DNA from: Sulfurimonas sp. HSL3-7
GTDB lineage: Bacteria > Campylobacterota > Campylobacteria > Campylobacterales > Sulfurimonadaceae
NCBI RefSeq assembly: GCF_039645985.1
Contig: NZ_CP147919.1
Span: forward strand, 310,001 to 374,000
Reading direction: 5' to 3'
DNA length: 64,000 bases
The translations under genes and the position numbers were made by a program. The notes under the pieces are model-generated. The model ran no database searches. It was given only the letters and a program-made list of their open reading frames with translations, and had not been told where the DNA came from. This document shows positions 27,283 to 53,774 of this stretch, one piece after another (within the stretch, counting starts at the first letter, position 1; each line of letters starts with the position of its first letter).

Positions 27283-27312
27283 CCCATTTACCATTCACCA
27301 TTCACCATTCAC
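27283..27312. repeat. Right arm: CCATTCA heptamer array
   Basis: Three to four tandem copies of a seven-base unit (ACCATTC), preceded by CCCATTT, form the inverse complement of 26869-26884. The array ends 20 bases before the queE start. A similar array (CCCTTCACCCTTCACC and onward) is found at 51555-51584 with no gene beside it. Confidence 0.65.
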
Positions 27313-40659: not shown

Positions 40660-40749
40660 ATGAGCCGAAACAAGGGATATGCCGAAAAGAAGTGTGCTGA
40701 ATGCACGCTTTTTACGGATAAAGTAAGATTAAATGGGAGGCCGACGTGA
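40660..40749 (+). CDS. Short ORF 1 of the yraN array
   Basis: ATG to TGA, 29 codons, with a good ribosome-binding site. It encodes the YraN-like start MSRNKG, then a Cys-containing tail (KKCAECTLFTDKV) from element A. Its TGA overlaps the GTG of the next unit (GTGA), so reading passes from unit to unit. Whether any product is stable is unknown. Confidence 0.35.
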   Translation: MSRNKGYAEKKCAECTLFTDKVRLNGRPT

Positions 40750-40835
40750 GTCGAGCCAAAGGATATGCCGTAAAGAAGTGTGCTGAATGCACGCTTTTTA
40801 CGGATAAAGTAAGATTAAATGGGAGGCCGACGTGA
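40746..40835 (+). CDS. Short ORF 2 of the yraN array
   Basis: GTG to TGA, 29 codons, MSRAKG followed by the same element-encoded tail with GYAVKKCAECT. Overlaps ORF 1 and ORF 3 by four bases each. Confidence 0.35.
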   Translation: MSRAKGYAVKKCAECTLFTDKVRLNGRPT

Positions 40836-40921
40836 GTCGAGCCAAAGGATATGCCGTAAAGAAGTGTGCTGAATGCACGCTTTTTACGGATAAAGTAAGA
40901 TTAAATGGGAGGCCGACGTGA
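40832..40921 (+). CDS. Short ORF 3 of the yraN array
   Basis: Identical in sequence to ORF 2. Its TGA overlaps the GTG start of the complete yraN gene, so translation of yraN may be coupled to it. Confidence 0.35.
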   Translation: MSRAKGYAVKKCAECTLFTDKVRLNGRPT

Positions 40922-41247
40922 GTCGAGCCAAAGGAACCATAGCTGAAGAAAAGGCGTGCGAGTTTCTGCGTGAACACGACTTTGATATCATTGACCGCAA
41001 TGTCTACAGCCGCTATGGTGAAATTGATATCATCGCGCTTAAAGAAGATGTATTGCATTTTGTTGAAGTGAAAAGTGCCACTGCGTATGACAGTGCCGTT
41101 CAAAACATCACCCCTGTCAAGCTGCAGCGTTTTCTGCTGACAGTAGCGAGCTATCTTAAAAAACACAAGCTTGATATGGCGTATTGCGTCGACGGTGTTA
41201 TTGTGACGCCGGATACGGTGACGCATATAGAAAATATTACGCTGTAG
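40918..41247 (+). CDS. yraN: UPF0102/YraN family endonuclease-fold protein
   Basis: 109 residues from GTG, with GGGAGG eight bases upstream, supplied by element A. The family pattern is complete: RAKGTIAEEKACEFL, then YGEIDIIALKEDVLHFVEVKS, which contains the Asp and Glu-x-Lys of the restriction-endonuclease-like fold. Function of the family is unresolved; a role in DNA or RNA processing is suspected. The intact gene follows three partial copies of its own 5' end. trxA follows after 200 bases. Confidence 0.92.
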   Translation: MSRAKGTIAEEKACEFLREHDFDIIDRNVYSRYGEIDIIALKEDVLHFVEVKSATAYDSAVQNITPVKLQRFLLTVASYLKKHKLDMAYCVDGVIVTPDTVTHIENITL

Positions 41248-49971: not shown

Positions 49972-49989
49972 GAGTGCATTCCTACTTTA

Positions 49990-50255
49990 GGGCACCTCTA
50001 TAAACCCCAGCCAACCTCAGAGGGAAGAAAGAGAGATGAGAACGTGTAAAATCTTTTTTGAGTTGTAGCCAAAGCTACGACGATGAAAAGTTCTACGCGT
50101 TATCGCTCTCTTTATCCCTCCCGCAGGGCGATAGAGAGAAATCCACACTCCGCGTTGATCCTTTTGGCCTTAGCTACGGCTAGGGCTTCAAAGAATCGCC
50201 TTGATTGTGAACTTCTCTCTATCGCTGAGGCGGACTTGGGCTTATAGAGGTGCCC
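49990..50255. mobile_element. MITE with 18-base terminal inverted repeats and TTTA target duplication
   Basis: The left end GGGCACCTCTATAAACCC and the inverse complement of the right end (GGGCACCTCTATAAGCCC) match at 17 of 18 positions. TTTA stands on both outer sides (49986-49989 and 50256-50259). The 266-base body has no ORF but has inner inverted segments. This is the anatomy of a miniature inverted-repeat transposable element moved by a DDE transposase encoded elsewhere. The transposase family is uncertain; four-base duplications and G-rich ends are compatible with IS5-like relatives. Confidence 0.8.
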
Positions 50256-50334
50256 TTTAATTTAAATCGTTATTTAATGGAGGTGATTTTATCCAAAAAG
50301 TCATTAGCTTCTTGTTAATATGAGACCCGTCAAG

Positions 50335-50371
50335 AAAAAGCCAACTGCTTGGCTTTTTTAGGGTCGGAACC
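50335..50371 (+). repeat. Repeat B, copy 3
   Basis: AAAAAGCCAA and TTGGCTTTTTT around CTGC (50335-50359), then GGAACC at 50366-50371. Ten bases later element A begins, showing that B and A can occur as one composite unit. Confidence 0.6.
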
Positions 50372-50380
50372 AGAGCAGAT

Positions 50381-50434
50381 GATATGCCACTGAAAAGTGC
50401 CTGAACGGCACTCTTCGGTGGATAAAGTTATATA
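50381..50434 (+). repeat. Element A, solitary diverged copy
   Basis: Starts GATATGCC and continues through a hairpin (CCACTGAA with TTCGGTGG, AGTGCC with GGCACT, loop TGAAC) to GGATAAAGTTATAT. The stem differs from the yraN and DUF523 copies at many positions, yet pairing is kept by matching changes on both sides. No duplicated gene start is seen beside this copy. Confidence 0.65.
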
Positions 50435-50512
50435 TAGATAATCAACCAGTACCTGTGGCAGAGACATTCAAGCCAACTGCCCTAAAGAAACATCGTTGCG
50501 CGAGCGGTATCC

Positions 50513-50540
50513 TTGTTTTGGCTTTTTTAGGGTCGGAACC
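50513..50540 (+). repeat. Repeat B, partial copy
   Basis: Only the right half is present: TTGGCTTTTTTAGGG, then TCGGAACC. The left arm region reads CCTTGTT and no longer pairs well. Confidence 0.5.
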
Positions 50541-50555
50541 GCCAAAGGCGTAAAT

Positions 50556-50613
50556 AAAAACAGAAACTGCTTTCTGTTTTTTAGCCGACGCGCCTTTATG
50601 ATGTGCGAAGCAC
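50556..50613. repeat. Repeat B, copy 4, and probable terminator of the globin gene
   Basis: Arms AAAAACAGAAA and TTTCTGTTTTTT keep the CTGC loop of the other copies but use a different stem (CAGAAA/TTTCTG instead of GCCAA/TTGGC). A GTGC-GAA-GCAC hairpin follows (50603-50613). Read on the minus strand it lies just behind the globin stop and has a T run, so it can terminate that transcript. Confidence 0.6.
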
Positions 50614-50621
50614 CGACTGTT

Positions 50622-51648: not shown

Positions 51649-53064
51649 ATGAAAGCAAAGATATTTTTCGGTTCCAGTGAGGCAGAGACAACACGGTTCA
51701 GCGAACGGCTGAGCCCCTATGACAACAAAGTGGTCTCTACCGCACCGGTCTGCGGTGTCGAAGAGACAAAAAAAGCGCTCGAGATCGCTAAAAATGCAAC
51801 GGTCTCGGCAAAAGCGTCGACACTGGCACAGCGCTGTGCATGGCTGCTTGATGTTGCCGATAAACTGCGTGCGAACAGGGAAGATCTGGCGCGGACCATT
51901 ACCGATGAAGTGGGCAAACCGATTGCCTTCGCACGGGTCGAAGTCGACCGCTGTATCGAGACGGTCACGCTTTCGGCCGAGACGATGCGGACGATGCATG
52001 GTGAGACCATCAACACCGATGCGATGCCGAGCGGGAAGAAGACGATGGCCTTTTTCAGACGTGAACCGGTCGGTGTCGTCGCGGCGATCACCCCGTTCAA
52101 CTTTCCGCTCAACCTGGTTGCCCATAAACTTGCACCGGCGCTGGTCGCCGGTAATGCCGTGGTGTTGAAGCCGACGCCGGAAGCGCCGCTCACTGCCTAT
52201 AAATTTGCCAAGATGTTCATTGAGAGCGAGTATGCGGTCAAAGATGCGCTGAGCGTGGTCTACGGCGATGCCGAAGTGGGTTCGACGCTGGTCGGCTCCG
52301 ATATCCCCCGCGTGATCAGTTTTACCGGTTCGGTGCCGGTCGGCAACATCATCACCAAATCGGCCGGCATCAAAAAAGTGAGCCTGGAGCTCGGCGGCAA
52401 TGCAGCGACCTATATCGACAAGAGCGCCGACCTTGATCTTGCGGCGAACCGCTGCGCCCTGGGTGCCTTTGTCAACTCCGGACAGGTCTGCATCTCCCTG
52501 CAGCGTATCTATGTCGATGCGGTAGTCTATGATGAATTTGCGCAAAAGATGGCGGATGAGACAAAAAAACTGGTTGTCGGATCGCCGTATGACGACGATA
52601 CTTTCATGGGGCCGCTCATCAATGAGGAGTCGGCAGAGAGAGCCCTCTCCTGGGTGCAGTCCGCTATTGATGAGGGGGCACGTCCGGTGACAGAGGTCAA
52701 GTGTGAAGGGACGATGTTCTACCCGACCGTGATGGCCGACGTGACGGACGATATGGCGATCGTCTGCGAGGAGGTCTTCGCACCGATTGTCTCTCTTGTC
52801 AAAGTGGACGGTTTTGACGATGCCGCGCCGAGAATGAACAACTCGCCGTACGGCCTGCAGTTCTCGGTCTTTACCAACGACCTTGCATTGACGCAGCGCG
52901 CTGTCGATGAGCTGGACGCGGGCGGCATCATCATCAACGACATGCCGACCCTGCGTTTCGACATCCAGCCCTACGGCGGTGTGAAACTCAGCGGCGTCGG
53001 ACGCGAAGGACCGCATTTCGCGATCGAAGAGATGACCGAGATCAAGTCGGTCGTTATCTGCTGA
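51649..53064 (+). CDS. NAD(P)-dependent aldehyde dehydrogenase
   Basis: 471 residues, ALDH superfamily. Catalytic residues are visible: Asn151 (TPFNFPLNL), Glu247 in LELGGNAA, and Cys281 in SGQVCISLQRI. The nucleotide-binding FTGSVPVG (about residues 225-232) is present. The CISLQR form around Cys and the loss of an N-terminal extension resemble lactaldehyde or succinate-semialdehyde-type members; the substrate is not certain. The stop codon overlaps the ATG of the first DUF523 start copy. Confidence 0.9.
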   Translation: MKAKIFFGSSEAETTRFSERLSPYDNKVVSTAPVCGVEETKKALEIAKNATVSAKASTLAQRCAWLLDVADKLRANREDLARTITDEVGKPIAFARVEVDRCIETVTLSAETMRTMHGETINTDAMPSGKKTMAFFRREPVGVVAAITPFNFPLNLVAHKLAPALVAGNAVVLKPTPEAPLTAYKFAKMFIESEYAVKDALSVVYGDAEVGSTLVGSDIPRVISFTGSVPVGNIITKSAGIKKVSLELGGNAATYIDKSADLDLAANRCALGAFVNSGQVCISLQRIYVDAVVYDEFAQKMADETKKLVVGSPYDDDTFMGPLINEESAERALSWVQSAIDEGARPVTEVKCEGTMFYPTVMADVTDDMAIVCEEVFAPIVSLVKVDGFDDAAPRMNNSPYGLQFSVFTNDLALTQRAVDELDAGGIIINDMPTLRFDIQPYGGVKLSGVGREGPHFAIEEMTEIKSVVIC

Positions 53065-53180
53065 TGGCAAAAAAGAAAGCGATCGTCTCGGCATGTCTGT
53101 TGGGCGAGGCAGTGCGTTATGATGATATGCCGAATGAGAAATGTGCTGAATGCACATTTTCATCGGATAAAGTAAGATAG
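53064..53180 (+). CDS. Short ORF 1 of the DUF523 array
   Basis: 38 codons and TAG. The first 20 residues equal the DUF523 start (MAKKKAIVSACLLGEAVRYD); the rest is the element-encoded tail with EKCAECTFSSDKVR, in the same reading frame as the tail at yraN. Its ATG overlaps the aldehyde dehydrogenase stop. Confidence 0.35.
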   Translation: MAKKKAIVSACLLGEAVRYDDMPNEKCAECTFSSDKVR

Positions 53181-53192
53181 ATAGGATTGTCT

Positions 53193-53309
53193 TTGCGAAA
53201 GAAGAAAGCGATCGTCTCGGCATGTCTGTTGGGCGAGACAGTGCGTTATGATGATATGCCGAATGAGAAATGTGCTGAATGCACATTTTCATCGGATAAA
53301 GTAAGATAG
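53193..53309 (+). CDS. Short ORF 2 of the DUF523 array
   Basis: 38 codons and TAG from TTG, preceded by AGGATTGTCT from the element. Same tail as ORF 1. It stops 12 bases before the start of the intact gene. Confidence 0.35.
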   Translation: MRKKKAIVSACLLGETVRYDDMPNEKCAECTFSSDKVR

Positions 53310-53321
53310 ATAGGATTGTCT

Positions 53322-53774
53322 TTGCGAAAGAAGAAAGCGATCGTCTCGGCATGTCTGTTGGGCGAGACAGTGCGTTATGATGGAACCACCAAAAAAGACA
53401 ACAACGTGATCGAAGCACTCAAAGCGTACGAGATCATCCCGTTCTGCCCGGAAGATCCGGTAATGGGGACACCCCGCGAACGTATCTCGGTCATTAATGT
53501 CAACGGCGAATATAGGGTGATCACTGATAACAGCCGTATCGAAGTGACCACCGCCTTGAAGCTTCAGACAGAGAAGATGATAGAAGCCCATCCCGATGCC
53601 GATATCATCGTGCTCAAATCCAAGTCGCCCAGTTGCGGCTTGGGCACGACGCCGATCCTGAACACGAACAGAGAAGAGGTGAAACTGGGCAACGGGGTGG
53701 CCGCCGATCTTTTCAGCAACAGGTTCCCCGGCAGGGTCTTCGACGAATATTCGATCCTGACGCATCTTGCCTAA
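53322..53774 (+). CDS. DUF523 family protein
   Basis: 150 residues. The family pattern is complete: KAIVSACLLGETVRYDG at the N terminus, FCPEDPVMGTPRERI (about residues 43-57) and LKSKSPSCGLG (about residues 104-114), with conserved Cys residues at 11, 44 and about 111 that could hold a metal or Fe-S site. Biochemical role unknown. Start is taken as TTG at 53322, because AGGA lies six bases before it; the upstream in-frame TTG at 53316 is too close to that site. Two partial copies of its 5' end precede it. Confidence 0.82.
   Translation: MRKKKAIVSACLLGETVRYDGTTKKDNNVIEALKAYEIIPFCPEDPVMGTPRERISVINVNGEYRVITDNSRIEVTTALKLQTEKMIEAHPDADIIVLKSKSPSCGLGTTPILNTNREEVKLGNGVAADLFSNRFPGRVFDEYSILTHLA

Follow-up and report, generated by a model that had tools for sequence, protein, structure and literature searches.

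SXT-type ICEs in prfC carry their own replacement 5′ end together with an integrase. In target-primed insertion, as known from LINEs and SINEs, one junction is sharp and the other variable, and the target duplications vary in length or are lacking. Among the short bacterial repeats, REP and REPIN elements and REPtrons are GTAG- or CGTC-tagged palindromes with a RAYT/TnpA-REP protein (PMC3733652, PMC8266576, PMC3116915), the defining tag being an unpaired GTAG or CGTC beside the stem (PMC3733652). Rickettsia palindromic elements (RPE) are palindromic repeats of about 150 bp, read as in-frame inserts within proteins (PMC10969869).

The locus compared here with these systems lies upstream of yraN in Sulfurimonas sp. 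HSL3-7, within a window of 64,000 nucleotides (the whole stretch of DNA that was analysed). The source genome, designated G000, is one contig of 2.87 Mb. A first-pass annotation had described a threefold repeat of the gene start, interrupted by a hairpin element. Three 86-bp units were indeed found, spaced 86/86, with an identity of at least 95% and followed by an intact gene from the GTG at 40918. Units 2 and 3 are identical and unit 1 is different (ATG, MSRNKG), as had been described. Each unit comprises a start codon and further yraN sequence as far as the first base of codon 6, then a hairpin element of 54 nt (here called E) and 17 nt with a ribosome-binding site (RBS).

40660..40745, + strand: yraN unit 1, native start (ATG, MSRNK plus one base), E, locus-specific spacer with RBS
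40676..40729, + strand: E copy 1 (yraN)
40746..40831, + strand: yraN unit 2, duplicated yraN start (GTG), E, spacer
40762..40815, + strand: E copy 2 (yraN)
40832..40917, + strand: yraN unit 3, identical to unit 2
40848..40901, + strand: E copy 3 (yraN)
40918..41247, + strand: intact yraN (UPF0102), 109 aa, GTG start

The element had been given a length of 68 bases, which had to be revised: the part common to different loci is about 54–55 nt, and the following 17 nt with the RBS are locus-specific. The array scores 516 in TRF, and the folding energy of its hairpins is −17.8 to −20.5 kcal/mol (z about −5.7). Five occurrences of the motif GATATGCC..GGATAAAGTAAGAT were counted in the window, where shuffling gave an expectation of 0.00, and the motif is therefore not a product of chance. 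A second array, of two 129-bp units (53064–53321), was located upstream of a DUF523 gene, together with a single copy elsewhere in the window.

50381..50433, + strand: E copy 6, single and intergenic, with no clear duplication ending at the copy
53064..53192, + strand: DUF523 locus unit 1, beginning with 20 codons from the native start of the gene (DUF523, 2-thiouracil desulfurase family), followed by E and spacer
53124..53178, + strand: E copy 4 (DUF523)
53193..53321, + strand: DUF523 locus unit 2, TTG start
53253..53307, + strand: E copy 5 (DUF523)
53322..53774, + strand: intact DUF523 gene, TTG start, 150 aa

Other repeats were recorded in the window. At 49986–50265 lies a MITE-like repeat without E, bounded by the terminal inverted repeats AAGGGCACCTCTA..TAGAGGTGCCCTTT; copies of this repeat in the congener G003 have E in mid-repeat. 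A further repeat, GCGAAACCAGAGTCGATG .. variable short hairpin .. CCGACGTCGGCTTGGACATCAAT, occupies 50330–50620 and recurs at loci L075, L086, L099 and L100; it is found near AAGCCAACTGCTTGGCTTTT hairpins, with E at the same point in several genomes and no duplication. An intergenic tandem heptamer, CCATTCA, is present in four copies at 27284–27312, and CCATT-rich stretches resembling it occur upstream of znuB in G004 and G001.

A search of the complete genome and its relatives showed that the array is not unique. Covariance models, built from the window copies and the yraN copy of a congener and later refined, showed E, an element of about 55 nt, to be present in several Sulfurimonadaceae genomes with tens of copies each; matches extended throughout the genus and into further genera of the family. 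The refined model gave 27 copies in G000, 19 in G002, 25 in G003, 33 in G014, 25 in G062, 20 in G013 and 25 in G079, and only 2–6 in several congeners. G006 and G031 likewise belong to the E-rich genomes, and G001, G004 and G074 to the E-poor ones. A strict motif had no match among about 85k genomes or in viral contigs, being too narrow. With a looser motif, 13 contigs from about 85k genome records were matched, MAGs among them, all labelled Helicobacteraceae, Sulfurimonas, Sulfurimonadaceae or Campylobacterales; one viral contig also matched, lacked the long stem and was judged a chance hit. Rfam contained no family matching E in ten E loci, where only tRNA and unrelated weak matches were returned. 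The literature searched held no account of such an element, many subscription papers lying outside its coverage.

The consensus of E reads roughly GATAY-NYC, stem, GRR-TAAARTARNAT and then a weaker NAATAG, and in 119 distinct junctions the ends were GATAY.. and ..TAAARTARNAT. The stem covaries: two-sided changes were seen in 13 of 14 pairs, in 120 cells against 35±6 after shuffling (0/500 shuffles), and the signal was lost when the partner was slid. E thereby has the structured single-stranded hairpin of the REP type, with conserved structure. Covariation is also present within single loci, namely ruvA (5/13 pairs), pfkA (4/16) and a tRNA site (3/15). Retention of the stem at fixed sites, including antisense downstream of the tRNA, may reflect a need for continued activity or a function in place.

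At every locus, the DNA to the left of E was compared with the DNA to its right. Of 143 copies, 49 have an anchored duplication, in which the left flank ends 0–1 nt from E and recurs to the right of it; values of up to 122 were observed, against a 99th percentile of 8.0 for the null. The duplicated stretch X, present in about a third of the copies and mostly 24–119 bp long, produces the arrangement X-E-X′. Two thirds of the copies have no detectable duplication, and the right junction is thus variable; some copies sit within other repeats and may have hitch-hiked there. The hosts of X are the starts of yraN, ruvA, znuB, pfkA, maf, DUF523 and ccoS and the 3′ ends of metH, tRNA and 5S rRNA, the identity of eight host genes having been checked with Pfam. 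From the end of E to the end of the repeat, 24 bp were counted at ccoS, 32 at yraN, 32–33 at ruvA, about 32–34 at codon 4 of znuB, 40 at codon 8 of znuB in another genus and 34 at a gene end in G079. The longer values are 72 at pfkA, 74 at DUF523 and 104 at maf, and among the 3′ ends about 87–93 at metH, 116 at the tRNA and about 106–129 at 5S rRNA. A helical-turn spacing of these lengths was considered and dropped after further loci gave 24, 34 and 78 bp. E is in sense orientation at 5′ ends and antisense at 3′ ends (metH, tRNA, 5S), with the intact copy to its right in both, as selection for survival of the host gene would give.

Further arrays were noted in passing. In G000, arrays of diverged E units lie directly 3′ of 5S rRNA genes, with the 5S 3′ end in every unit (C1:2477260–2477474, 2789682–2789896 and 897132–897359; L178, L179 and L083). 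At L180–L183 of the same genome, E copies are followed by the common sequence 'atggtttaccacttgtgc', perhaps a composite repeat that carries E along. L346 of G079 is a very young array at a gene 3′ end, with near-identical E copies and a 34-nt duplication which includes the stop codon.

The left junction obeys a simple rule. Of the 119 distinct left junctions, 90% have A at position −2 (background 32%) and only 7% have A at position −1. Nineteen target sites could be reconstructed, either from the intact side or from a repeat copy lacking E; A at −2 and G at +1 were each found in 18 of them, giving A-N|G. Comparison of the MITE-like repeat of G003, filled with E, with the E-free copy of the window showed the same left junction (CTAAG|G), about 20 nt replaced and no duplication. 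By analogy, this pairing of a sharp with a variable junction would resemble target-primed insertion more closely than cut-and-paste transposition.

The set of genomes contained one genome per species, and insertions were read from sequence comparison, none being caught de novo. In relatives without E, at yraN and the other E loci compared, the start is single and uninterrupted. At the yraN site itself, a single unit is present in the congener G002, against three in G000, and other relatives lack the hairpin there. This comparison supports the annotated tandem amplification following insertion. Between G005 and G007, pfkA differs by one unit within nearly identical flanks. As X and X′ are direct repeats, units can be gained or lost by unequal recombination. 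Many of the insertions appear to be old, since mean identity is 0.79 for copies that share a locus in different species and only 0.69 for those from different loci (0/5000 permutations), the genome having no effect. At the tRNA site, the ends of E are 92–100% identical between genomes, against 60–81% for the surrounding intergenic DNA. The same ruvA site is occupied in three genera, g1, g8 and the more distant g7, which may be due to old descent, transfer or a strong site preference; it could also mark an old functional leader instead of ongoing mobility.

Where E lies at a gene start, the old start codon opens a leader ORF, consisting of X and E, which runs into the element; in yraN unit 1 it spans 40660–40749 and its stop falls on the next start codon. 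Of 17 units whose length is not divisible by three, 16 have a leader frame that stays open to or past the start of X′, maf being the sole exception; the other two frames are open in 0/17. Twelve of the open leaders have no stop before the X′ start and four, all pfkA, have a single stop abutting it. All seven units with a length divisible by three have a stop in the leader frame (7/7), so that no extended protein would be made. Each locus keeps one unit length in different genera, 87 bp at znuB and 86 bp at ruvA, the latter in seven genomes of three genera; the exception is G014 (59 bp), where 27 nt were lost in frame. Between the codons of X and X′, 19 synonymous and 9 nonsynonymous differences were counted (one genome per locus; p = 2×10−6 against an approximate expectation of 25% synonymous). 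These frame and codon counts are strong but not independent, as the species share ancestry. A conserved peptide encoded by E was considered and rejected; the read-through peptides vary between loci and frames, and the claim is therefore limited to conservation of the frame. That the leader is often kept open to the new start codon, at ruvA in three genera, suggests translational coupling. In the simplest reading, ribosomes would begin at the native start, read on across the hairpin and terminate on the new start codon, where they would re-initiate; such a leader would be hard to lose.

Several other explanations were weighed. The first-pass annotation had likened the element to SXT in prfC, entering the gene and bringing a fresh 5′ end. 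Entry right after the start stands, with a non-coding E at that position, an intact 5′ end downstream and the hairpin absent or present in one unit in relatives. Carriage of the 5′ end as cargo, possibly as a cassette of E and X moving between species at a fixed gene, has little probability. It would agree with the constant unit length at ruvA and znuB and with the frequent differences between X and X′ at synonymous positions. However, E is found at many genes, each with its own locus sequence duplicated, and the 3′ ends of tRNA, 5S rRNA and metH are duplicated equally. In young cases X equals X′, perfectly at znuB in G013 (40/40) and the gene end in G079 (34/34) and nearly so at ruvA in G062 (30/32). 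At maf it is X′ that matches the E-free congener G003, the left X being the divergent one, and the copy at the tRNA site has unrelated DNA to the left of X. As X is locus-specific and always local, the repeated gene end is a target duplication and not cargo, and E carries no yraN start. A somewhat better, still improbable, case can be made for E as mainly a conserved cis-acting RNA leader, its arrays arising at gene edges from slippage induced by the hairpin and from tandem duplication, not from transposition. Vertical conservation by locus, covariation within loci and the conserved leader frame all fit this view. Against it are the presence of E at unrelated 5′ and 3′ ends, on either strand relative to the gene, the sharp A-N|G junction and the MITE-like repeat with E in one copy and not in another; slippage moreover gives no account of how E reaches new loci.

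Movement of a REP-like element by a Y1 transposase (RAYT/TnpA-REP) is about as unlikely as the carriage of a 5′ end. The single-stranded hairpin with conserved unpaired bases beside its stem would suit such an enzyme, and Y1 genes are present in G000. Yet E has neither a GTAG nor a CGTC tag, and Y1 (PF01797) is absent from G079 (25 copies) and the near-complete G013 (20 copies), both rich in E, and from the incomplete G002 and G006, while many genomes lacking E have it. In the literature compared, REPs are not described as making long target duplications. Programmed ribosome bypassing, of the type of T4 gene 60 or the mitochondrial byps, would have ribosomes initiating at the left X and skipping both E and X′. 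The X of yraN and ruvA does end in a GGA codon that recurs at the same place in X′, and the left X stays coding. The junction codon is nevertheless different at pfkA, maf, DUF523 and znuB, the model does not suit intergenic or antisense copies, and X′ retains its own start codon, usually with an RBS, overlapped or abutted by the leader stop in a way that fits re-initiation; bypassing is thus very improbable. An assembly artefact is scarcely credible: many E copies do lie at contig ends in draft genomes, but G000 is a single contig and the same structures recur in independent assemblies of several species.

Taken as a whole, E is best explained as a small non-autonomous mobile hairpin of the Sulfurimonadaceae, with an A-N|G left junction, a variable right junction, target duplication, amplification and a coupled leader (probability about 0.72). 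The insertion chemistry would be such that the left end of E joins the target exactly between N and G and the right end at a variable point, often about 24–119 bp to the left, to give X-E-X′, and sometimes not, leaving no duplication. For yraN, the order of events that we infer is insertion of E after codon 5 with duplication of about 32 bp, followed by unequal recombination between the direct repeats to three units. The old start would then open the leader ORF through E to the new start codon, and yraN would probably be translated in vivo by coupling and re-initiation, by which the leader frame would be held for long times. Insertions near a gene start or near the 3′ end of a tRNA, rRNA or CDS would survive because the duplicate leaves one intact gene to the right of E. 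No mobilising enzyme for E was found, and the distribution of the Y1 transposase does not track the element. A more specific version is possible but doubtful. E would be SINE-like, a bacterial element consisting of a structured nucleic acid some 55–60 nt long. Its target-primed insertion would open the DNA at A-N|G, with closure of the second strand at a variable distance. E would duplicate up to about 120 bp, settle in gene starts without killing the gene and become locked in by leader coupling.

E illustrates how a compact bacterial gene can survive the entry of a mobile element: where the target duplication exceeds the distance to the gene edge, this edge is regenerated. At ruvA, pfkA, yraN and znuB, the start has been moved behind a hairpin leader, probably translated, and this arrangement was retained across species, providing a test bed for coupling and for the fixation of elements. 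Like REPs and REPINs, E is a short, non-coding, dispersed and non-autonomous hairpin whose stem is flanked by conserved unpaired bases and shows compensatory changes; unlike them, it has no GTAG/CGTC tag, is larger, has long target duplications in about a third of the copies and shows no association with Y1. It shares with RPE a palindromic repeat entering protein-coding genes, but here the gene edge is duplicated and the protein unchanged, the leader ORF ending at or before the X′ start and the intact gene standing separate. Bacterial MITEs are likewise small, non-autonomous and dispersed and leave direct repeats. E differs from them in the lack of conserved terminal inverted repeats, its short conserved unpaired ends not being mutually inverted and its stem varying with compensatory changes. 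It also lacks the short target duplication of fixed length (mostly 24–119 bp in E, or none). As after SXT insertion, the downstream gene has an intact 5′ end, whereas E is without coding capacity and the piece that is repeated comes from the locus itself. With one precise and one variable junction, and a duplication or none, E shares the junction signature of target-primed insertion with LINEs and SINEs, which use an RNA intermediate and a reverse transcriptase; the likeness concerns the junctions, in an element of different size and host. The insertion signature of E fits none of the element classes tested, and the enzyme behind it may therefore be new.
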